A DNA stretch of 28,473 nt from an uncultured Sutterella sp. (GTDB lineage Bacteria; Pseudomonadota; Gammaproteobacteria; Burkholderiales; Burkholderiaceae_F): positions 1 through 28,473 of the forward strand of contig UQTE01000027.1 in NCBI GenBank assembly GCA_900543805.1, read 5' to 3'. Positions within the stretch are counted from its first letter, which is position 1. Every line of letters begins with the position of its first letter. The notes beneath the pieces are model-generated. The model made no database searches, had not been told where the DNA came from, and worked only from the letters and a program-made list of their open reading frames with translations. This document shows, one piece after another, positions 10,516-27,990 of the stretch. The translations under genes and the position numbers were made by a program.

Positions 10516-11337
10516 TCAAGCCTTCTGCTTACCGCAGCAGCATTCACCTTCTTCATGATGATGGTGGTGATGGCCTTCACCGCCGCAGCAACATTCGCCT
10601 TCTTCATGATGATGGTGATGATGGCCTTCGCCGCCGCAGCAGCATTCGCCTTCCTCATGATCGTGGTGATGATGGTGACCGCCGCAACCGCAACCGCATT
10701 CTTCCTCATCGTGGTGATGATGGTGACCGCCGCAACCGCAGCCGCATTCTTCGTCATCGTGGTGATGATGGTGATGACCGCCGCAACCGCAGCCGCATTC
10801 TTCCTCATCGTGATGATGGTGGTGACCGCCGCAGCCGCAACCGCATTCTTCACCGTCGTGATGATGGTGATGGCCGCCGCAACCGCAACCACAGCCGCTA
10901 GCGGAACGGTAGACGATGCGGATCGGATCGAACCCTTCTTCGACTTCGGTGATTTCAAGACCGATCATCGTGAGCATCTTCGCGACGTTTTCCTGCGCAA
11001 CGACGGCAAAGCCCCCTTCGGCTTCGGCAACGCGCACGCCGCGGTTGATCAGGGCGCCCGCCGCTTCACGCATGAGGTCGAGGTCGCCCGTGACGTGAAG
11101 AACCTTTTCCACGGCCGGACGAACCGCCCAGAATTCGCCCTTTTCGTCCACGAACACGTCGTTGACTTCAAGCACGCGGCGTTCCGTCACGCCGAAGGTG
11201 ATGACGTCGCCGTCCACCTTCACTTCCTGCGGCCATTCCACGCGTTCGGCCAGAGTGAGCGAAAGCGTGTGCGCACGGTCAAGAATCGGCTGGGCCGGAG
11301 CAGCTTCGGGAGGAAGCAGTTTCGTAAGAGTCGTCAT
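10516..11337 (-). CDS. ureE: UreE-like nickel chaperone with Cys/His repeat tail
   Basis: UreE proteins bind nickel and hand it to urease assembly. Residues 1-140 follow the UreE plan: LTKLLPPEAAPA at the start, NDVFVDEKGE in the N-terminal domain, then AGALINRGVRV, VAKMLTMIGLEI and GFDP in the C-terminal domain. Where UreE has GNRHV with a nickel-binding His, this protein has INRGV. From about residue 148 it becomes seven metal-binding blocks, CGCGCGG or CCCGGEG plus five or six His and acidic residues, ending CCCGKQKA. The tail alone has about 39 His and 24 Cys. No urease or hydrogenase gene is in the window. The ATG at 11337 gives 273 residues. It lies 40 nt after radA and may be co-transcribed with it. 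SlyD has a similar tail but a different fold. Confidence 0.75.
   Translation of the reverse strand: MTTLTKLLPPEAAPAQPILDRAHTLSLTLAERVEWPQEVKVDGDVITFGVTERRVLEVNDVFVDEKGEFWAVRPAVEKVLHVTGDLDLMREAAGALINRGVRVAEAEGGFAVVAQENVAKMLTMIGLEITEVEEGFDPIRIVYRSASGCGCGCGGHHHHHDGEECGCGCGGHHHHHDEEECGCGCGGHHHHHHDDEECGCGCGGHHHHHDEEECGCGCGGHHHHHDHEEGECCCGGEGHHHHHHEEGECCCGGEGHHHHHHEEGECCCGKQKA
10534..10893 (-). repeat. Tandem repeat coding for the Cys/His tail
   Basis: Seven consecutive units of roughly 48-54 bp encode the metal-binding blocks of the UreE-like protein. The first five encode CGCGCGG plus a His run and the last two CCCGGEG plus six His. The 3' two units are almost identical in DNA, suggesting recent duplication. 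Confidence 0.85.
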
Positions 11338-11377
11338 GATTAAATTTCCAGACAGAAATTGGGATGATTGGGCAATT

Positions 11378-12763
11378 TTAGGGCAGAGCGGCGGAAAGCG
11401 CATCCGACAATCGGTCTACGGCGACGACCTCCAGCCCTTCGATCGGCGTACGCGGCGCGTTGGCGCGCGGAATGATCGCCTTGGAAAATCCGAGCTTGGC
11501 GGCTTCGCGAAGACGTTCCTGTCCGCGGGGCGCCGGGCGGATTTCACCCGCAAGGCCCACTTCTCCAAAAACGACGAGTCCCTTCGGAAGGGGCTTGTTG
11601 CGGATGCTCGAATAAATGGCGGTGAGAATGGCGAGGTCGACGGCCGTTTCCGTGATCTTCACGCCGCCCACGGCGTTGACGAAGACGTCCTGGTCAAAGC
11701 AGGCGACGCCCGCGTGGCGGTGCAGCACCGCAAGAAGCATCGCGAGGCGCTGCGCGTCGACGCCCACGGCGAGACGCCGGGGGCTCGGCAGATGACTCGT
11801 GTCGACGAGCGCCTGCATTTCGACGAGGAGCGGGCGCGTCCCCTCCTGCGTGACGAGAACGGTGCTCCCGGGCACGTTCGCCTTGTATTCGGAAAGAAAA
11901 ATGGCCGAGGGATTCGTCACCCCCACGAGACCGTGGTCGGTCATCGCGAAGACGCCGAGCTCGTTCACCGCCCCGAAGCGGTTCTTGAAGGCGCGGATGA
12001 GGCGGAAGTTCGAGTGGGTGTCCCCTTCGAAGTAGAGCACCGTGTCGACGATGTGTTCGAGAATGCGCGGCCCCGCGAGCGCCCCGTCCTTCGTGACGTG
12101 CCCCACGAAAAAGAGCGTGATCCCGAGACGCTTGGCGGTGCGGGTGAGCCGCGCCGCGCATTCGCGCACCTGCGAGACCGACCCCGGCGCGCTGTCGAGG
12201 TCGCCCGAGAAAAGCGTCTGAATCGAGTCGAGGACGACGAATTCGGGCTTCACGCGGTTCAGAACCGATTCGATCTGCTCGAGCTGCACTTCGCTCATGA
12301 GCTGCAGTCCCTTGGGTTCGAGTTGCAGGCGCTTGGCGCGCAGAGCGATCTGCGAGGGACTTTCTTCGCCGCTCACGTAGAGGGCCTTGCGGCCCATGCG
12401 CACGATGCGGCTTACCACCTGCAGAAGGAGCGTCGACTTCCCGATCCCCGGATCGCCCCCGATGAGGGAGACGCCGCCAGGGACGAGGCCGCCCCCCATG
12501 ACGCGGTCGAATTCAGATAGGCCCGTCACGATGCGGGGCGTATCCTCGATCGTCACATCGCCCAAATCCTGCAGGGTACCCGTCGTTTCCACGAAGCCCT
12601 GCGCGGCGCGCTCGTTGCCGTAGCGGCTCGCCGCGCCCTGCGTCACCTTGAATTCCTGAAGCGTATTCCACGCCTTGCAGTGCGGACACTGGCCGCTCCA
12701 CTTGAGGGTCGTCCCGCCGCATTCGGTACAGACGAAATTCGTTCGTGCCTTTTTGAGCGCCAC
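11378..12763 (-). CDS. radA: DNA repair protein RadA (Sms)
   Basis: RadA is a RecA-related hexameric helicase that drives branch migration during recombination and processing of recombination intermediates. The N-terminal zinc finger has Cys 12, 15, 26 and 29. Walker A is GDPGIGKS (103-110) and Walker B VVLDSIQ (176-182). The RadA-specific KNRFG motif is at 260-264. A Lon-like inactive protease fold fills the C-terminal third. Length 461 is normal. It starts with GTG at 12763, only 3 nt after the alr stop, with AGGGAG just upstream inside alr, so it is translated from the alr transcript. The UreE-like gene follows after 40 nt. Confidence 0.97.
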   Translation of the reverse strand: MALKKARTNFVCTECGGTTLKWSGQCPHCKAWNTLQEFKVTQGAASRYGNERAAQGFVETTGTLQDLGDVTIEDTPRIVTGLSEFDRVMGGGLVPGGVSLIGGDPGIGKSTLLLQVVSRIVRMGRKALYVSGEESPSQIALRAKRLQLEPKGLQLMSEVQLEQIESVLNRVKPEFVVLDSIQTLFSGDLDSAPGSVSQVRECAARLTRTAKRLGITLFFVGHVTKDGALAGPRILEHIVDTVLYFEGDTHSNFRLIRAFKNRFGAVNELGVFAMTDHGLVGVTNPSAIFLSEYKANVPGSTVLVTQEGTRPLLVEMQALVDTSHLPSPRRLAVGVDAQRLAMLLAVLHRHAGVACFDQDVFVNAVGGVKITETAVDLAILTAIYSSIRNKPLPKGLVVFGEVGLAGEIRPAPRGQERLREAAKLGFSKAIIPRANAPRTPIEGLEVVAVDRLSDALSAALP

Positions 12764-22851: not shown

Positions 22852-24306
22852 ATGAGCAAAACCATCCTCACGATCGACGAATACCGCAGTCTCGAGACGC
22901 GCGCGGGCAACATGCTCGGCCACGACGCCCTCATGTTGCGCGCCGGCACGGCCGCGGCCGACTTCATCGCCGAACGCATTCCCGCGGGCGGGCGCGTGAC
23001 GCTCCTCGTGGGCCCGGGCAACAACGGCGGCGACGCGCTCGTCGCCGCCCTCGAACTCAAGAAGCGCGGGTTCGCAACGACCGTCGTCCTGCCCGGCGGC
23101 CGCCAGCCCAAGTCCGAACTCGCCAAGCGCTTCTTTGCCGAATGGTGCGAAGCGGGCGGCGCCGTGACCGACGATCCCTACCTCACGGAAAAGGCCGACT
23201 GCGTCGTCGACGGCCTCTTCGGCATGGGCCAGACCAAGCCCGTCGCGGGCGACGACCTCGACGCCGTCCTCTGGTTCAACGAACGCCGCGGCCTCAAGGT
23301 GTCGCTTGACGTTCCCACGGGGCTCAATCCCTACACGGGCCGCTGGATCGGTCCGCGTCCGGGCTGCCGCGCCGACGCGACGCTCACCTTCCTCGCCACC
23401 AAGGCGGGCTTCTACATGGAGGAAGGCGTCGACGCCGCCGGCGAAATTCATCTCTTCGAACTCGACGTCTCGATTCCTCTTTCGACCCTCTCCGTCGTGG
23501 AAGAGGACGAATTCCCGCACGTGCTCCATCGCCGCGCCCAGAACGTCCACAAGGGCGACTTCGGCCGCCTCGTCGTCACGGGCGGCGCCCGCGGCACCTT
23601 CGGCGCCGCGATCCTCGCCGCGCGCGCGGCCCTTACTATGGGTGCGGGGCTCGTCACGGTGGACGCCCTCGCAGAAGACATTCCGGCCTTCGATCCGCTC
23701 GAACCCGCCCTGATGTTCGCCGTCGAAAAGCCCGACTATTCGAAGTTCGACGTGACCGTTCTCGGTCCGGGCCTCGGCCGCTCCGAAGCCGCCCGCGCCC
23801 GCGTGAAGGAAGCGCTCGAAACGGCGCACGCTCTGGTGCTCGACGCCGACGCGCTCAACATCATCGCCGAGGATCTTCCTCTGCAGGATCTTCTTCTCTC
23901 CCGCCGGGAACCGACGGTTCTCACGCCGCACGCCATGGAGGCCGCTCGCCTTCTGCGCCGCGACGTCAAGGACGTGACCGTCGACCGCGTGGCGGCCGCC
24001 CGCGAACTCGCCGTGCAGACGGGCGCGATCGTCGTTCTGAAGGGTCCGGGCACCGTCACGACGCTTCGCAGTTCGCGCGCCTGGATCAATCCGACGGGTT
24101 CGGCCATGCTCGCCACGGCGGGCACGGGCGACGTCCTCGCCGGCATGATCGGCGCCATGTTCGCGCAGAAGTTCGACATGGTCGAAGCGACGCTCTCGGC
24201 CGTGTGGCTCCACGGCCGCGCGGTTGAAGGCATCGAAGCGGGCGTCACGGCCTCTTCGGTCGCCCGCCTCGCCGCGGATCTTCTCGACAGAATGCGTCAA
24301 TCGTAA
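22852..24306 (+). CDS. nnr: Bifunctional NAD(P)HX epimerase and ADP-dependent dehydratase
   Basis: This enzyme repairs hydrated NADH and NADPH. The N-terminal YjeF domain epimerises R-NAD(P)HX and contains GPGNNGGDALVAA (54-66) and DVPTGLNPYTG. The C-terminal ribokinase-fold domain removes water using ADP; its key motif is NPTGSAMLATAGTGD (413-427) with catalytic Asp427. Length is 484, typical of the fused form. The ATG at 22852 has AGGGG about 7 nt upstream. Codon use is strongly GC3-rich, like the other core genes. It is divergent from the Nudix hydrolase, another nucleotide clean-up enzyme. A hairpin with 7-bp arms GAGCGCA/TGCGCTC (24318-24353) follows, but A rather than T residues come after it. 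Confidence 0.96.
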   Translation: MSKTILTIDEYRSLETRAGNMLGHDALMLRAGTAAADFIAERIPAGGRVTLLVGPGNNGGDALVAALELKKRGFATTVVLPGGRQPKSELAKRFFAEWCEAGGAVTDDPYLTEKADCVVDGLFGMGQTKPVAGDDLDAVLWFNERRGLKVSLDVPTGLNPYTGRWIGPRPGCRADATLTFLATKAGFYMEEGVDAAGEIHLFELDVSIPLSTLSVVEEDEFPHVLHRRAQNVHKGDFGRLVVTGGARGTFGAAILAARAALTMGAGLVTVDALAEDIPAFDPLEPALMFAVEKPDYSKFDVTVLGPGLGRSEAARARVKEALETAHALVLDADALNIIAEDLPLQDLLLSRREPTVLTPHAMEAARLLRRDVKDVTVDRVAAARELAVQTGAIVVLKGPGTVTTLRSSRAWINPTGSAMLATAGTGDVLAGMIGAMFAQKFDMVEATLSAVWLHGRAVEGIEAGVTASSVARLAADLLDRMRQS

Positions 24307-24412
24307 CTGTTCGTAGGGAGCGCATCCGATGATTTGCATCCGGGGCTGCGCTCAAAAAACCTTCGGGGAGACGAAAATTCCGTTCGATCCGGGCTTGTGA
24401 GCCTCCCAACGT

Positions 24413-24467
24413 TTTGTTACGGGGAAGGAAATTTCGACATACCTCCTCCCGAGACCTTTGTTAGAGT
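24413..24467 (+). promoter_or_regulatory. Promoter-like boxes of small RNA unit 1
   Basis: Box A TTTGTTACG at 24413, box B TTTCGACATA at 24432 and box C CTTTGTTAGAGT at 24456. The start-to-start distances A-B 19 and B-C 24 are identical in units 2 and 3. Box C contains the -10-like TAGAGT. The bases 17 bp upstream (ATACCT) are not a sigma-70 -35. Confidence 0.6.
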
Positions 24468-24473
24468 AGCCTT

Positions 24474-24571
24474 CAACAGGAAGGACAAACACCGGACTGT
24501 TGGACTCCAGCTTAGGTTGAGTTATTGAGGGTTTGAGAGGCCGTGGGCATACGCTCACGGCCCTTTTTTTT
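24474..24571 (+). ncRNA. Candidate small RNA, unit 1 of 3
   Basis: Predicted 98-nt RNA. A 5' hairpin has arms CAACAG (24474-24479) and CTGTTG (24497-24502), with GGA motifs in the loop. The single-stranded core, from AGGTTGAG to GAGGGTTTG (24514-24535), is kept in all three units. The RNA ends with a 10-bp terminator stem (24539-24548 with 24553-24562, one G-U) and eight T. No open frame with a start and ribosome site fits inside. Units 1 and 2 are nearly identical over the RNA while the DNA between them is not. The family is not one I recognise. Confidence 0.7.
24539..24571 (+). terminator. Terminator of small RNA unit 1
   Basis: Arms GGCCGTGGGC and GCTCACGGCC with a 4-nt loop, then C and eight T. 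Confidence 0.9.
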
Positions 24572-24740
24572 GGTTCCGCATGCGCCGCTCGGCATCTTCG
24601 TCGAGTCACACTGCGCCATGCCTGCACATCGAATTTTTCCAGATCGTAACCGTTCGTTTGCGACCGACGGCCCCAAGCGTGAGACAAATCCGTCCCGCGT
24701 CGGCTTTCCCTGTGCGCAGAAAGTTTCCCGGCTCCTACAC

Positions 24741-24795
24741 TTTGTTACGGGCTACGGCATTTCGAAATATCCTCCGCCGAAGGCTTTGATAAAGT
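24741..24795 (+). promoter_or_regulatory. Promoter-like boxes of small RNA unit 2
   Basis: Box A TTTGTTACG at 24741, box B TTTCGAAATA at 24760 and box C CTTTGATAAAGT at 24784. Spacings of 19 and 24 are the same as in unit 1. The -10-like TAAAGT is at 24790-24795. Confidence 0.6.
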
Positions 24796-24800
24796 AGCGT

Positions 24801-24900
24801 CAACAGGAAGGACGAACACCGGACTGTTGAGACTCCAGCTTAGGTTGAGTTATTGAGGGTTTGGAAGGCCGTGGGCGACATCGCTCACGGCCCTTTTTTT
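24801..24900 (+). ncRNA. Candidate small RNA, unit 2 of 3
   Basis: Predicted 100-nt RNA. It is almost identical to unit 1 from the 5' hairpin (CAACAG 24801-24806, CTGTTG 24824-24829) through the core to the terminator. Differences are one base in the first loop, one inserted base after the hairpin, an altered linker before the terminator and a longer terminator loop (GACATC instead of ATAC). These changes spare the stems and core, which is the pattern expected of a functional RNA. Confidence 0.7.
24867..24900 (+). terminator. Terminator of small RNA unit 2
   Basis: Same 10-bp stem as unit 1 (24867-24876 with 24883-24892), 6-nt loop, then C and seven T. Confidence 0.9.
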
Positions 24901-25114
24901 GATCGAGGACCCGTGCACGGATACGATCGGAGATTCCTTCGGAGCGCCTCCCGGCAGCCTCTGTAACGAAGCATGAAAATCCTCCCCTGCCGAGCAAAAA
25001 ATGCGGGAACAAATCTCTTTTCCCGGCTTGCCCTCCCTGCACCGCTTTTCCAGGATTCCAAGTCCCCACACAAAAGAAAAAGTCCTGAGACAGAACGGAT
25101 TTCCCCGTCAACAC

Positions 25115-25169
25115 TTTGTTACGTGCTTCGGATTTTCGACATATCTTGAAGAAGGCCCTTTGGTAGAGT
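25115..25169 (+). promoter_or_regulatory. Promoter-like boxes of small RNA unit 3
   Basis: Box A TTTGTTACG at 25115, box B TTTCGACATA at 25134 and box C CTTTGGTAGAGT at 25158. Spacings are 19 and 24 as in the other units. The -10-like TAGAGT is at 25164-25169. Confidence 0.6.
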
Positions 25170-25175
25170 TACCCC

Positions 25176-25271
25176 GTCGAGAGGAACGACAGCGTCCTTT
25201 CGCGACTCTGCCAAGGTTGAGTATTTTGAGGGTTTGGAGTGGCCGCGAACTTCGGTTCGCGGCCTTTTTTT
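25176..25271 (+). ncRNA. Candidate small RNA, unit 3 of 3 (diverged)
   Basis: Predicted 96-nt RNA. The first hairpin has a different sequence but the same position: GTCG plus AGAGGA (25176-25185) pairs with TCCTTT plus CGAC (25195-25206) around a 2-nt bulge. The core AAGGTTGAG, then TTTTGAGGGTTTGGA (about 25213-25238) matches units 1 and 2. The terminator stem is also replaced but intact, with a TTCG tetraloop. Structure kept while sequence changes argues for selection on the RNA. Confidence 0.65.
25241..25271 (+). terminator. Terminator of small RNA unit 3
   Basis: Perfect 10-bp stem GGCCGCGAAC (25241-25250) and GTTCGCGGCC (25255-25264), TTCG tetraloop, then seven T. Confidence 0.92.
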
Positions 25272-25303: not shown

Positions 25304-25626
25304 GAAGGCGTCGCCTTCATCCCCATCTTGTGACTCTTTACGACTTTTTTGGGGGCCGTCCCCTCGTCTTTGACGTCGGGGGACCGCGTTGGTCGCGTCG
25401 AACGCCAACGAACGCGAGCTGCCACGTCCGAGCCACTCAGCCCGGTCGCTCGGCTCCGCCTCGCGAAGTCTTCGGCCCGATGCTTGGTGATCGGAGAACC
25501 TCGGTACGGGATCACGCGAGGCTCTAGAGAAGAATCGCGTATTTGCAGGAAATCTGCCCGGGCGTCTATGATTTCCTCACCGACTCGGCTCTGCCGCTCC
25601 GATTCGTTCGACTTTTCATCTCCTTC
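25304..25626. other. Gene-free region between the small RNAs and recD2
   Basis: No supported gene is visible. It holds a small perfect hairpin TGAAGGC/GCCTTCA near 25303-25319. A larger one pairs GTCCCC with GGGGGAC around 25358-25383, and CGAGC/GCTCG arms lie near 25430-25455. A 202-codon open frame on the minus strand (25108-25716) crosses the region but also runs through the third small RNA and its terminator. A TAGAAT -10-like box is at 25671-25676. Confidence 0.5.
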
Positions 25627-27990
25627 ATGCCACGTTCCTCTTATTCGCCGCCGCATTCGCGCCCCCGTCCTAGAATTCACCCATGCGCTCCTCCGGACCC
25701 AATATCCGATAACCACTCCGCGGCGCCCCGCCGTCCCGCTCAGCCCTCGTCCTCGACGCCGACGTCTTCACCGAACGGCGCGGGCGCAACCTCGGCCTCC
25801 TCGGCCGGCACTCCTGCGCCGTTTGCCAAGATCGCGGGTTTGGTGGAGCGCGTCACCTTCCACAACGGACAAAACGGCTTCTGCGTCCTGCGGCTCAAAG
25901 TGAAGGGCGAACGCGACCTCGTTACGCTCGTCGGCCACACGCCCTCCGTCACGCCCGGCGAATACGCCACGGCTTTCGGTCAGTGGATCGTCGATCGGGA
26001 ATACGGGCGGCAGTTCAAGGCAGAATGGCTTCGCATTCATCAACCGACGACCGCCACGGGTATTGAAAAGTACCTGGGCTCGGGGATGGTGAAGGGAATC
26101 GGGCCTTTCTTCGCCAAAAAGCTCGTGCAGGCCTTCGGGACGGAGGTCTTCTCCGTTATCGAGAACGAACCCAATCGCCTGAGGGAAATCGAGGGGATCG
26201 GGCGCAAGCGCCTCGAACGTATCACGGCCGGCTGGGCCAGCCAAAAGGTGATTCGGGAAATCATGGTCTTTCTTCACGGTCACGGCGTCTCGACATCAAA
26301 GTCCGTGCGCATCTACAAGACTTACGGCAACGACGCCGTCCGGGTCGTTCAGGAGAATCCGTATCGCCTTGCGCAGGACATCCGCGGGATCGGTTTCAAG
26401 TCGGCCGATACCATTGCGAAGAACGTCGGGATCGACCGGCATTCCCCGCTTCGTGCCCGCGCCGGGATTTCCTATACGCTCCTCGAAGCATCGGGGAACG
26501 CCGGGCACTGCTGTCTTCCACGCTCGGAACTCGTCCAAAAGGCGGTGGAACTTCTCGACATTCCGGAAGACGTGATTCAACCGGCGATCGACTTCGAACT
26601 CGAATCGCAACGAGTCGTCGAAGACGTGTTCCCGGAACCGGGGAGCGTCTATCCGATCGGTCTCTATCTCGCGGAAGAGGGCGTCGCCAAGGAAGTGCGC
26701 CGTCTCGGGCGCGGACGCTTGCCATGGCCCGCGGTCGATTCCGAGAAGGCCGTACCCTGGGTCGAAACGAAGCTCGGCATTCGATTGGCCGACAGTCAGC
26801 GCGCCGCGGTTTCGACGGCACTGCAGTCGAAGTTCAGCATCATCACCGGGGGACCCGGCGTAGGCAAAACAACGCTCGTGAAGTCGCTTCTCACGATCCT
26901 GGAAGCCAAGCACGTACGGATTCAGCTTTGCGCCCCAACGGGGCGCGCGGCGAAGCGTCTTTCCGAATCTTCGGGACGGGAACCCAAGACCATTCATCGC
27001 CTCCTTGAAATCAATCCGGAAAACGGGGAATTCAAACGCAACCAGGAAAATCCTCTGGAGTGCGATCTGTTGGTCGTCGACGAGAGCTCCATGATCGACA
27101 TCCAGTTGGCGAACCACCTGCTCACGGCCGTACCGTCCACCGCCTCCGTCCTGATCGTAGGCGACGTCGACCAACTTCCGTCCGTGGGACCGGGCGCGTT
27201 CCTATCCGACCTCATTGAGTCCCACACCGTTCCCGTCATTCGCCTCACGGAAGTCTTCCGACAGGCGGCTTCATCCTGGATCATCAAGGCGGCGCACCGC
27301 ATCAACGCGGGGCAGATGCCGCAGTTTCCGACGAAGGACGATCACGGCGACTGCTACTTCGTCAAGGTCGAGGAGACGGAAGAGGTGGCGGAGCGAATCG
27401 TGGATCTGGTGAAGCGCCGTCTTCCGAAGGCCTATGGAGTTGATCCGATTCGCAACATTCAGGTTCTCTGCCCCATGAACCGAAGCGGCTCGGGGGCGCG
27501 CGCCCTGAACCTCCTTCTGCAGGAGGCCCTGAACCCGCCAACCGACCAGTCGGTGGAGCGATTCGGCTACAAATTCGGGATCGGCGACAAAGTGATGCAG
27601 ATCGAAAACAACTACGACCGCGAGGTCTACAACGGCGACATCGGTTTCGTGGTTCGAAAGAACGAGGAGGATAAGACGCTCACGATCGACTTCGACGGAC
27701 GGGAAGTTGCCTACGACTACGCGGACCTCGACGAACTCGTCCTCTGCTACGCGACGACTATCCACAAATCTCAGGGAAGCGAGTACCCGATCGTCGTGAT
27801 TCCGCTTTCGATGCAACATTTCGTGATGCTGAAGCGCAACCTCGTCTACACGGGCGTAACCCGCGGAAAGAAGCTCGTCGTGATCGTGGGACAGCCCCGG
27901 GCCCTGGGCCTTGCCGTACGCTCGAACGACGCCCTGAAGAGAAAGACGGGGCTCCGCGCCCGATTGATCCGGCAGTGGTCGGGCGGCTGA
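25627..27990 (+). CDS. recD2: RecD2-type ATP-dependent DNA helicase
   Basis: RecD2 is a 5'-3' superfamily 1 helicase that acts without RecBC. From the ATG at 25627 (787 residues), an N-terminal OB-like domain (GLVERVTFHNGQNGFCVLRL) precedes helix-hairpin-helix motifs GIGPFFAKK, IEGIGRKRLE and IRGIGFKSAD. Helicase motifs are Walker A GGPGVGKTT (408-416), VVDESS (about 483-488), GDVDQLPSVGPG, VFRQA and YATTIHKSQGSEY near the end. The first ~65 residues are Pro/Ser/Ala-rich and unlike the family, so the true start is uncertain. The frame opens at a TTG at 25543, and TTG/GTG codons just before VERVTF at about 25840 are alternatives. No recB or recC is nearby. The CATGAAAG element flanks the gene on both sides. 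Confidence 0.93.
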   Translation: MPRSSYSPPHSRPRPRIHPCAPPDPISDNHSAAPRRPAQPSSSTPTSSPNGAGATSASSAGTPAPFAKIAGLVERVTFHNGQNGFCVLRLKVKGERDLVTLVGHTPSVTPGEYATAFGQWIVDREYGRQFKAEWLRIHQPTTATGIEKYLGSGMVKGIGPFFAKKLVQAFGTEVFSVIENEPNRLREIEGIGRKRLERITAGWASQKVIREIMVFLHGHGVSTSKSVRIYKTYGNDAVRVVQENPYRLAQDIRGIGFKSADTIAKNVGIDRHSPLRARAGISYTLLEASGNAGHCCLPRSELVQKAVELLDIPEDVIQPAIDFELESQRVVEDVFPEPGSVYPIGLYLAEEGVAKEVRRLGRGRLPWPAVDSEKAVPWVETKLGIRLADSQRAAVSTALQSKFSIITGGPGVGKTTLVKSLLTILEAKHVRIQLCAPTGRAAKRLSESSGREPKTIHRLLEINPENGEFKRNQENPLECDLLVVDESSMIDIQLANHLLTAVPSTASVLIVGDVDQLPSVGPGAFLSDLIESHTVPVIRLTEVFRQAASSWIIKAAHRINAGQMPQFPTKDDHGDCYFVKVEETEEVAERIVDLVKRRLPKAYGVDPIRNIQVLCPMNRSGSGARALNLLLQEALNPPTDQSVERFGYKFGIGDKVMQIENNYDREVYNGDIGFVVRKNEEDKTLTIDFDGREVAYDYADLDELVLCYATTIHKSQGSEYPIVVIPLSMQHFVMLKRNLVYTGVTRGKKLVVIVGQPRALGLAVRSNDALKRKTGLRARLIRQWSGG

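Follow-up and report, generated by a model that had tools for sequence, protein, structure and literature searches.

A genus-wide family of predicted tandem sibling small RNA genes downstream of nnrD in Sutterella, with a covarying fold and an invariant core

Tandem sibling small RNAs (sRNAs) have been described in Neisseria, where NmsRA/NmsRB of N. meningitidis and NgncR_162/163 of N. gonorrhoeae are reported to have three predicted stem-loops and to act on the 5′ leaders of metabolic mRNAs (PMC5362039), and where the siblings are described as altering amino-acid uptake (PMC9973317). Related sRNAs in several copies are also the topic of review sections on PrrF1/2, AbcR1/2, OmrA/OmrB and Qrr (PMC4211561). 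The window analysed here, a stretch of 28,473 nucleotides from an uncultured Sutterella sp., carries three units of about 100 nt in tandem on the plus strand, between an nnrD-type and a recD2-type gene. In layout and inferred role this array is closest to the tandem Neisseria siblings, a comparison made by published description. However, the Neisseria RNAs act through a UC-rich anti-Shine-Dalgarno motif lying between stem-loops 1 and 2, whereas what is conserved in the Sutterella RNAs is the purine-rich UGAGGGUU, which follows hairpin 2 and precedes the terminator. CUCC does occur in A-type GACUCC and in C-type UUUCUCCUGA, where the consensus structure places it in the 5′ arm of hairpin 2.

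Several of the PrrF1/2, AbcR1/2, OmrA/OmrB and Qrr RNAs are tandem as well, and their hosts are unrelated to Sutterella. None of them gave a hit when the window was scanned with Rfam 15 at curated gathering thresholds, which only four tRNAs reached, so that the absence of a known family claimed in the initial annotation holds at threshold. The best sub-threshold match in the array was SorY (RF02651) on unit 3 (23.4 bits, E 0.025–0.031, gathering 111). SorY, an alphaproteobacterial RNA, shares hairpins and a terminator with the unit, but eight positions in the region of the 5′ stem are marked as non-standard. The Betaproteobacteria toxic small RNA (RF02278) aligned to unit 3 only, with 16 bits against a gathering threshold of 50; it likewise is an sRNA with one hairpin and a terminator, but its consensus start UGUCUCCUCCA is not matched by unit 3. 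At least two highly similar sRNA genes per genome, as expected of siblings, were found in 6 of 12 Sutterella genomes (two to four in tandem) and in the window (three). No small-RNA study of Sutterella was found in the literature searched, most subscription papers lying outside that search. The array thus represents a new sRNA family of an already known kind, sibling sRNAs, and the term undescribed system used in the initial annotation overstates the case, given NmsRA/NmsRB, PrrF, AbcR and OmrA/OmrB.

In every unit, a conserved upstream box and a -10 box precede a 5′ hairpin at the probable transcript start, a second hairpin closed by CUC/GAG, the core and an intrinsic terminator; the sRNAs are predicted from sequence, fold, terminator and covariation. 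The features, all on the plus strand, are as follows.

22852..24306, +: nnrD-type gene (NAD(P)H-hydrate dehydratase and YjeF_N; Pfam), conserved upstream neighbour
24416..24421, +: unit 1 upstream box GTTACG, putative activator site
24462..24467, +: unit 1 -10 box TAGAGT, with TGn just before
24472..24571, +: unit 1 predicted sRNA, A type
24474..24502, +: unit 1 5′ hairpin CAACAG/CTGTTG
24503..24523, +: unit 1 hairpin 2 GACTC/GAGTT
24526..24533, +: unit 1 core TGAGGGTT
24539..24571, +: unit 1 terminator
24744..24749, +: unit 2 upstream box GTTACG
24790..24795, +: unit 2 -10 box TAAAGT
24799..24900, +: unit 2 predicted sRNA, A type
24801..24829, +: unit 2 5′ hairpin
24831..24851, +: unit 2 hairpin 2
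24854..24861, +: unit 2 core TGAGGGTT
24867..24900, +: unit 2 terminator
25118..25123, +: unit 3 upstream box GTTACG
25164..25169, +: unit 3 -10 box TAGAGT
25176..25271, +: unit 3 predicted sRNA, B type
25178..25202, +: unit 3 5′ hairpin CGAGAGGA/TCCTTTCG
25204..25223, +: unit 3 hairpin 2 GACTC/GAGTA
25227..25234, +: unit 3 core TGAGGGTT
25241..25271, +: unit 3 terminator
25543..27990, +: recD2-type helicase gene (Pfam), downstream neighbour of the array

Elsewhere in the window, a DDE transposase gene (PF01609) lies at the left end (306–1544), and a minus-strand open reading frame (10516–11403) ends in a C-terminus with repeated Cys-Gly-Cys-Gly and poly-His blocks, which by eye looks like the metal-binding tail of a UreE-like chaperone.

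The three tandem units lie where they had originally been placed. Units 1 and 2 have an identity of 0.88 over the RNA, 0.63 over the preceding 75 nt, 0.39 further upstream and 0.17 downstream, against an average of 0.30 and a maximum of 0.47 for random 100-mers of the window. Because identity drops to 0.39 and 0.17 in the flanks, the two are similar in RNA and promoter only; they had been called near-identical only within the unit, a description that fits the RNA well and the promoter less closely. Unit 3, whose RNA identity is 0.63 to unit 1 and 0.53 to unit 2, retains both hairpins through paired changes, just as had been read from its new but still paired sequences. All three RNAs fold better than their shuffles (z of -3.77, -4.30 and -3.30 for units 1, 2 and 3), and the unit terminators have the longest stems among the five terminators found in the region. 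A chance origin is excluded by covariation and by the fact that 10 of 12 genomes of the genus, with a weak eleventh, carry the RNA at this same position. Sequence, recurrence and covariation together support a family of RNA genes of about 100 nt with shared promoters and terminators, and we infer that the units are expressed as transcripts. No sign was seen that they are fragments of a transposon or a protein gene; protein coding was rejected since a one-base difference between the A- and B-type cores (TTA versus TATT) would break the frame.

The covariance-model search proposed in the initial annotation found the RNA well beyond the window. The exact core pattern had matches in 2 of 61 relatives, the nearest relative genome G001 (four sites) and G010 (three sites). 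A first model, R1, built from seven A-type units, matched 6 of the 12 Sutterella genomes, and a second, R2, built from 23 aligned matches, matched 10; in every one of these a copy lies shortly after nnrD, a gene present in all 12. In G005, a weak copy with several stem mismatches lies just after nnrD (27.9 bits with filters off) and was left out of the 28 distinct copies analysed below; in G002, no copy was found after nnrD with filters off. The first RNA starts approximately 105–385 bp after the nnrD match on the same strand in the ten genomes and G005, with a gap of 165 bp in the window. Copy number in tandem ranges from one to four across the genus: four in G007, three in G010, G006 and G012, three in G001 with a fourth 2.1 kb on, two in G009, and one each in G003, G004, G005, G008 and G011. 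Dispersed matches away from the array occur in G001 (C45), G012 (C22) and G011 (C3). On the latter contig (L031), two shortened relatives of the sRNA with the cores AATGAGGG or AAATGAGGG lie near lpxA/fabZ-like genes (by eye), away from nnrD, and are possibly a second, divergent branch.

Outside the genus, R2 matched 0 of 55 other genomes of the family, and in the samples of the order (399 genomes) and class (369) two each, namely G001 itself and one further genome. Both further matches were rejected by eye: the one from the order, in G269 (L099, 33.7 bits), lacks UGAGGGUU, and the one from the class, in G741 (L351, 39 bits), has TTGAGGGTCAT right after an apparent gene end and lacks the GGUUG hairpin. 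Of 22 pattern stretches in named genomes, 14 were non-Sutterella and none of these fitted the model (best L050, 21 bits, E 0.16). The family, order and class samples therefore hold no convincing copy outside Sutterella, although weak copies may be missed in samples of more than 40 genomes, for which stricter filters were used, as the G005 copy was. These searches place the family in the genus Sutterella.

Over its flanks as well as the RNA, unit 3 nearly matches the fourth unit of G001 (0.96–1.0). In G001, units 2 and 3 also resemble each other upstream (0.89), as would follow a recent duplication, whereas for units 1 and 2 of the window, and for the copies of S. massiliensis, the resemblance lies mainly in the RNA and to a lesser degree in the promoter. 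The A and B types are thus probably older than the separation of the window, G001 and G010. Between the third and fourth units of G001 (L008:1380–2900) lies a transposase-like sequence, IS110-like by eye.

In the 28 distinct copies, pairing is preserved in 97.0% of 666 cells, and both partners have changed in 18 of the 24 pairs (6/6 in helix 1, 3/8 in helix 2 and 9/10 in the terminator). Cells changed on both sides number 152 against a shuffled mean of 49.4, and 0 of 500 shuffles reached 152; pairing falls to 38–45% once partners are slid. Two caveats apply to these values: fitting the alignment to the model favours the structure, and kinship among copies inflates the shuffle control. Helix 2 reads GACUC/GAGUU in the A type and UUUCUC/GAGAAA in the C type, and because it covaries between them, the GAG of GGUUGAG is paired. 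The unpaired core originally drawn from AGGTTGAG to GAGGGTTTG is thus shortened, its GAG belonging to the second hairpin, while a shorter invariant stretch outside the hairpins, UGAGGGUU, persists before the terminator. Both TGAGGGTT and GGTTG are found in 28/28 copies, and UGAGGGUU extends to UUGAGGGUUUGG in most A- and B-type copies. The predicted accessibility of TGAGGGTT is middling (mean unpaired 0.43, and 0.08–0.23 in the three B-type copies), and single-sequence folding often pairs it with the CUC arm or other bases. In these predicted folds the competing pairing with CUC is possible, and it is not favoured by covariation. It is quite doubtful that the RNA is a self-masking riboregulator in which the CUC of hairpin 2 pairs either with the GAG of GGUUGAG, leaving the seed open, or with that of UUGAGGG, shutting it; if so, each sibling would be a switch with two states, controlled by Hfq, a metabolite or the target, and the tandem copies would differ in the strength of their preference for one state or the other.

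Upstream of the RNAs, GTTAC or GTTGC lies 45–48 nt before a TANANT-like -10 box in 23 of 28 copies, with a maximum of 2 in shuffled upstream regions; in the window units, GTTACG is followed 46 nt on by TAGAGT or TAAAGT. Approximately 20 nt past the GTTAC/GTTGC box, a further stretch, TTTCGACATA or GAAATACC, is conserved. A sigma-70 -35 element was not found (0 sigma-70-type sites, shuffled mean 0.2). The promoter-like boxes described earlier are thus shared as to the upstream box and the -10, with no recognisable sigma-70 -35 hexamer, and from this arrangement we infer that a shared activator would act on the copies. A GTAAC motif in the opposite orientation occurs approximately 98–155 bp upstream of each GTTACG (24303–24307, 24646–24650 and 24963–24967), that of unit 1 overlapping the nnrD stop; similar motifs are seen by eye in G001 and G010, and the motif may serve a second regulator or be left over from duplication.

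If the invariant core is the seed of a trans-acting sRNA, as had been proposed, its complements may be enriched near start codons. Matches were counted at -40..+20 of gene starts called by our own script (263 and 662 genes called) and compared with -120..-40 and with dinucleotide shuffles. In the close relatives, 8-nt complements of the A and B cores were about 2.3–2.9-fold over-represented near starts: in the G001/G010 samples, in which some genes are orthologues counted twice, the A core matched 19 of 659 genes (shuffle mean 6.55, reached by 3/400; sense control 5) and the B core 17 (mean 7.24, 4/400), against 5 for the 5′ hairpin as query (mean 8.17, 327/400). At -120..-40 the A core matched 8 genes (mean 5.05, 76/400), the 5′ hairpin 21 (mean 13.2, 45/400) and the B core 14 (mean 6.12, 11/400), the last being an excess not confined to starts. 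G010 alone gave 16 of 609 genes for the A core (mean 5.78, 0/200), and a second G010 sample of 254 genes gave 7 for the A core (mean 2.71, 12/200) and 8 for the B core (mean 3.08, 8/200), with 2 each in the upstream window. Of the 9-nt matches, 10 of 102 sites were near a start, a region holding 3.5% of positions. Among unselected loci, 10 of 26 were judged by eye to be real gene starts, versus 2/28 and 3–4/26 for the two controls.

Other counts were less favourable. At 7 nt, the A core was weak in both windows (38 vs 25.9 and 34 vs 23.0). At 10 nt there was no excess near starts (1 of 16 sites, shuffled mean 2.3), in a count that omitted the putP-like site although its ATG follows approximately 30 nt on. 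In the distant species G008, with C-type RNA, the 8-nt excess was not significant (5/262 genes, mean 3.42, 106/400), and a longer core gave 10 (mean 5.62, 30/400). Leaders are C/A-rich in general, permuted 7-mers being observed 236 times against 99 expected; among permutations, AACCCTCA ranks 2/280 and ACCCTCA 4/105, and counts of AACCCTCA paired with an ATG are little informative (183 vs 190 on the opposite strand and 88 for ACTCCCAA). Statistical support for the seed is moderate and mixed, the start-proximal excess speaking for it and the 10-nt and distant-species tests against it.

Sites occur in the G001 and G010 leaders of cytochrome bd subunit I (cydA), a sodium:solute symporter (putP-like), an FMN/FAD reductase, a dicarboxylate symporter and a peptide-binding protein, in the leader of a DcuC-type carrier in G011, and in that of a DHDPS-family enzyme in G008 and G004. 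The putP-like leaders of G001 and G010 contain TCCAAACCCTCAA, which is perfectly complementary to units 2 and 3 over 13 nt. These two genomes are the only ones with the site among 10 Sutterella cydA leaders and 12 putP-like leaders, and outside the genus it was absent from 8 and 5 such leaders, respectively. The duplex energy was reached by 0 of 300 shuffled leaders for the putP-like gene and the reductase, by 2 for the dicarboxylate symporter and for a DUF6198 gene, by 5 for a permease, and by 30, 31 and 80 for cydA, the DHDPS gene and the peptide-binding protein, although these shuffles are no independent test because the leaders were chosen for holding a site. In the closest relatives, the most promising candidate targets belong to transport and respiration: the putP-like symporter, the dicarboxylate symporter and the FMN/FAD reductase, with cydA and the peptide-binding protein being less convincing. 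The DHDPS-family leader of G008 and G004 (L147/L150) reads AACCCTCAGGAGAAA, of which the AACCCTCA part matches the core and the TCAGGAGAAA part C-type UUUCUCCUGA; a two-part pairing, with both matches in the right order, is possible, and its duplex energy is unexceptional.

That candidate mRNA sites are not conserved, whereas the motif is invariant in all 28 copies while its surroundings change, would also fit RNAs that act on a protein, for example as CsrA/RsmA decoys, with UGAGGGUU as the protein site and copy number as the titrating dose. Decoys such as CsrB and RsmY carry repeated conserved GGA motifs, the signature of CsrA; in the Sutterella RNAs, GGA is not conserved, occurring 1 to 6 times per copy and only once in 6 of the 28. 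A protein partner also leaves the start-proximal excess of the complement unexplained, and we consider it unlikely. The same excess favours mRNAs over another small RNA or a tRNA or rRNA fragment as the pairing partner; a sponge or anti-sRNA of this kind would account for a short invariant core together with turnover of candidate mRNA sites, as expected of one conserved RNA partner, and appears distinctly unlikely. Since the units lie between two same-strand genes, and since tandem repeats often stem from mobile DNA, they might instead be leaders, attenuators or mobile repeats rather than independent sRNAs. We regard this as very improbable: each unit has its own promoter boxes and terminator, location and fold are kept across the genus, and the gene following the array, read by eye, is not the same in every species, the recD2-type gene being seen after the array in G001 but not within 0.85 kb past it in G010. 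A transposon or phage origin was rejected on the same conserved placement and on 0 of 40 viral pattern stretches matching the model at E 0.5.

Because the copies keep fold, promoter and an eight-letter core, they are probably mRNA-pairing regulators. With somewhat better than even confidence, we favour three separately transcribed sibling genes of one Sutterella sRNA family that act in trans, with UGAGGGUU(UGG) pairing to mRNA leaders. Hfq is encoded in all 12 Sutterella genomes (in two pieces in G002), and the RNAs have an intrinsic terminator with a U run, as is typical of Hfq-dependent sRNAs. We propose the following hypothetical mechanism, in which (i) an activator bound at GTTAC(G/A)...GAAATA would turn the copies on together; (ii) Hfq would bind the U-rich 3′ end; (iii) UGAGGGUU, as UUGAGGGUUUGG in most A- and B-type copies, would pair with leaders near the ribosome-binding site and repress translation; and (iv) tandem copies would raise the dose and allow siblings to diverge, as in the A and B types. 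A genus-wide sRNA with a fixed location, one to four copies, strong covariation and an invariant 8-nt core would offer a natural series in which to study the multiplication of sibling sRNAs and its causes, and may provide a first entry to the post-transcriptional control of uptake and respiration in Sutterella gut bacteria.
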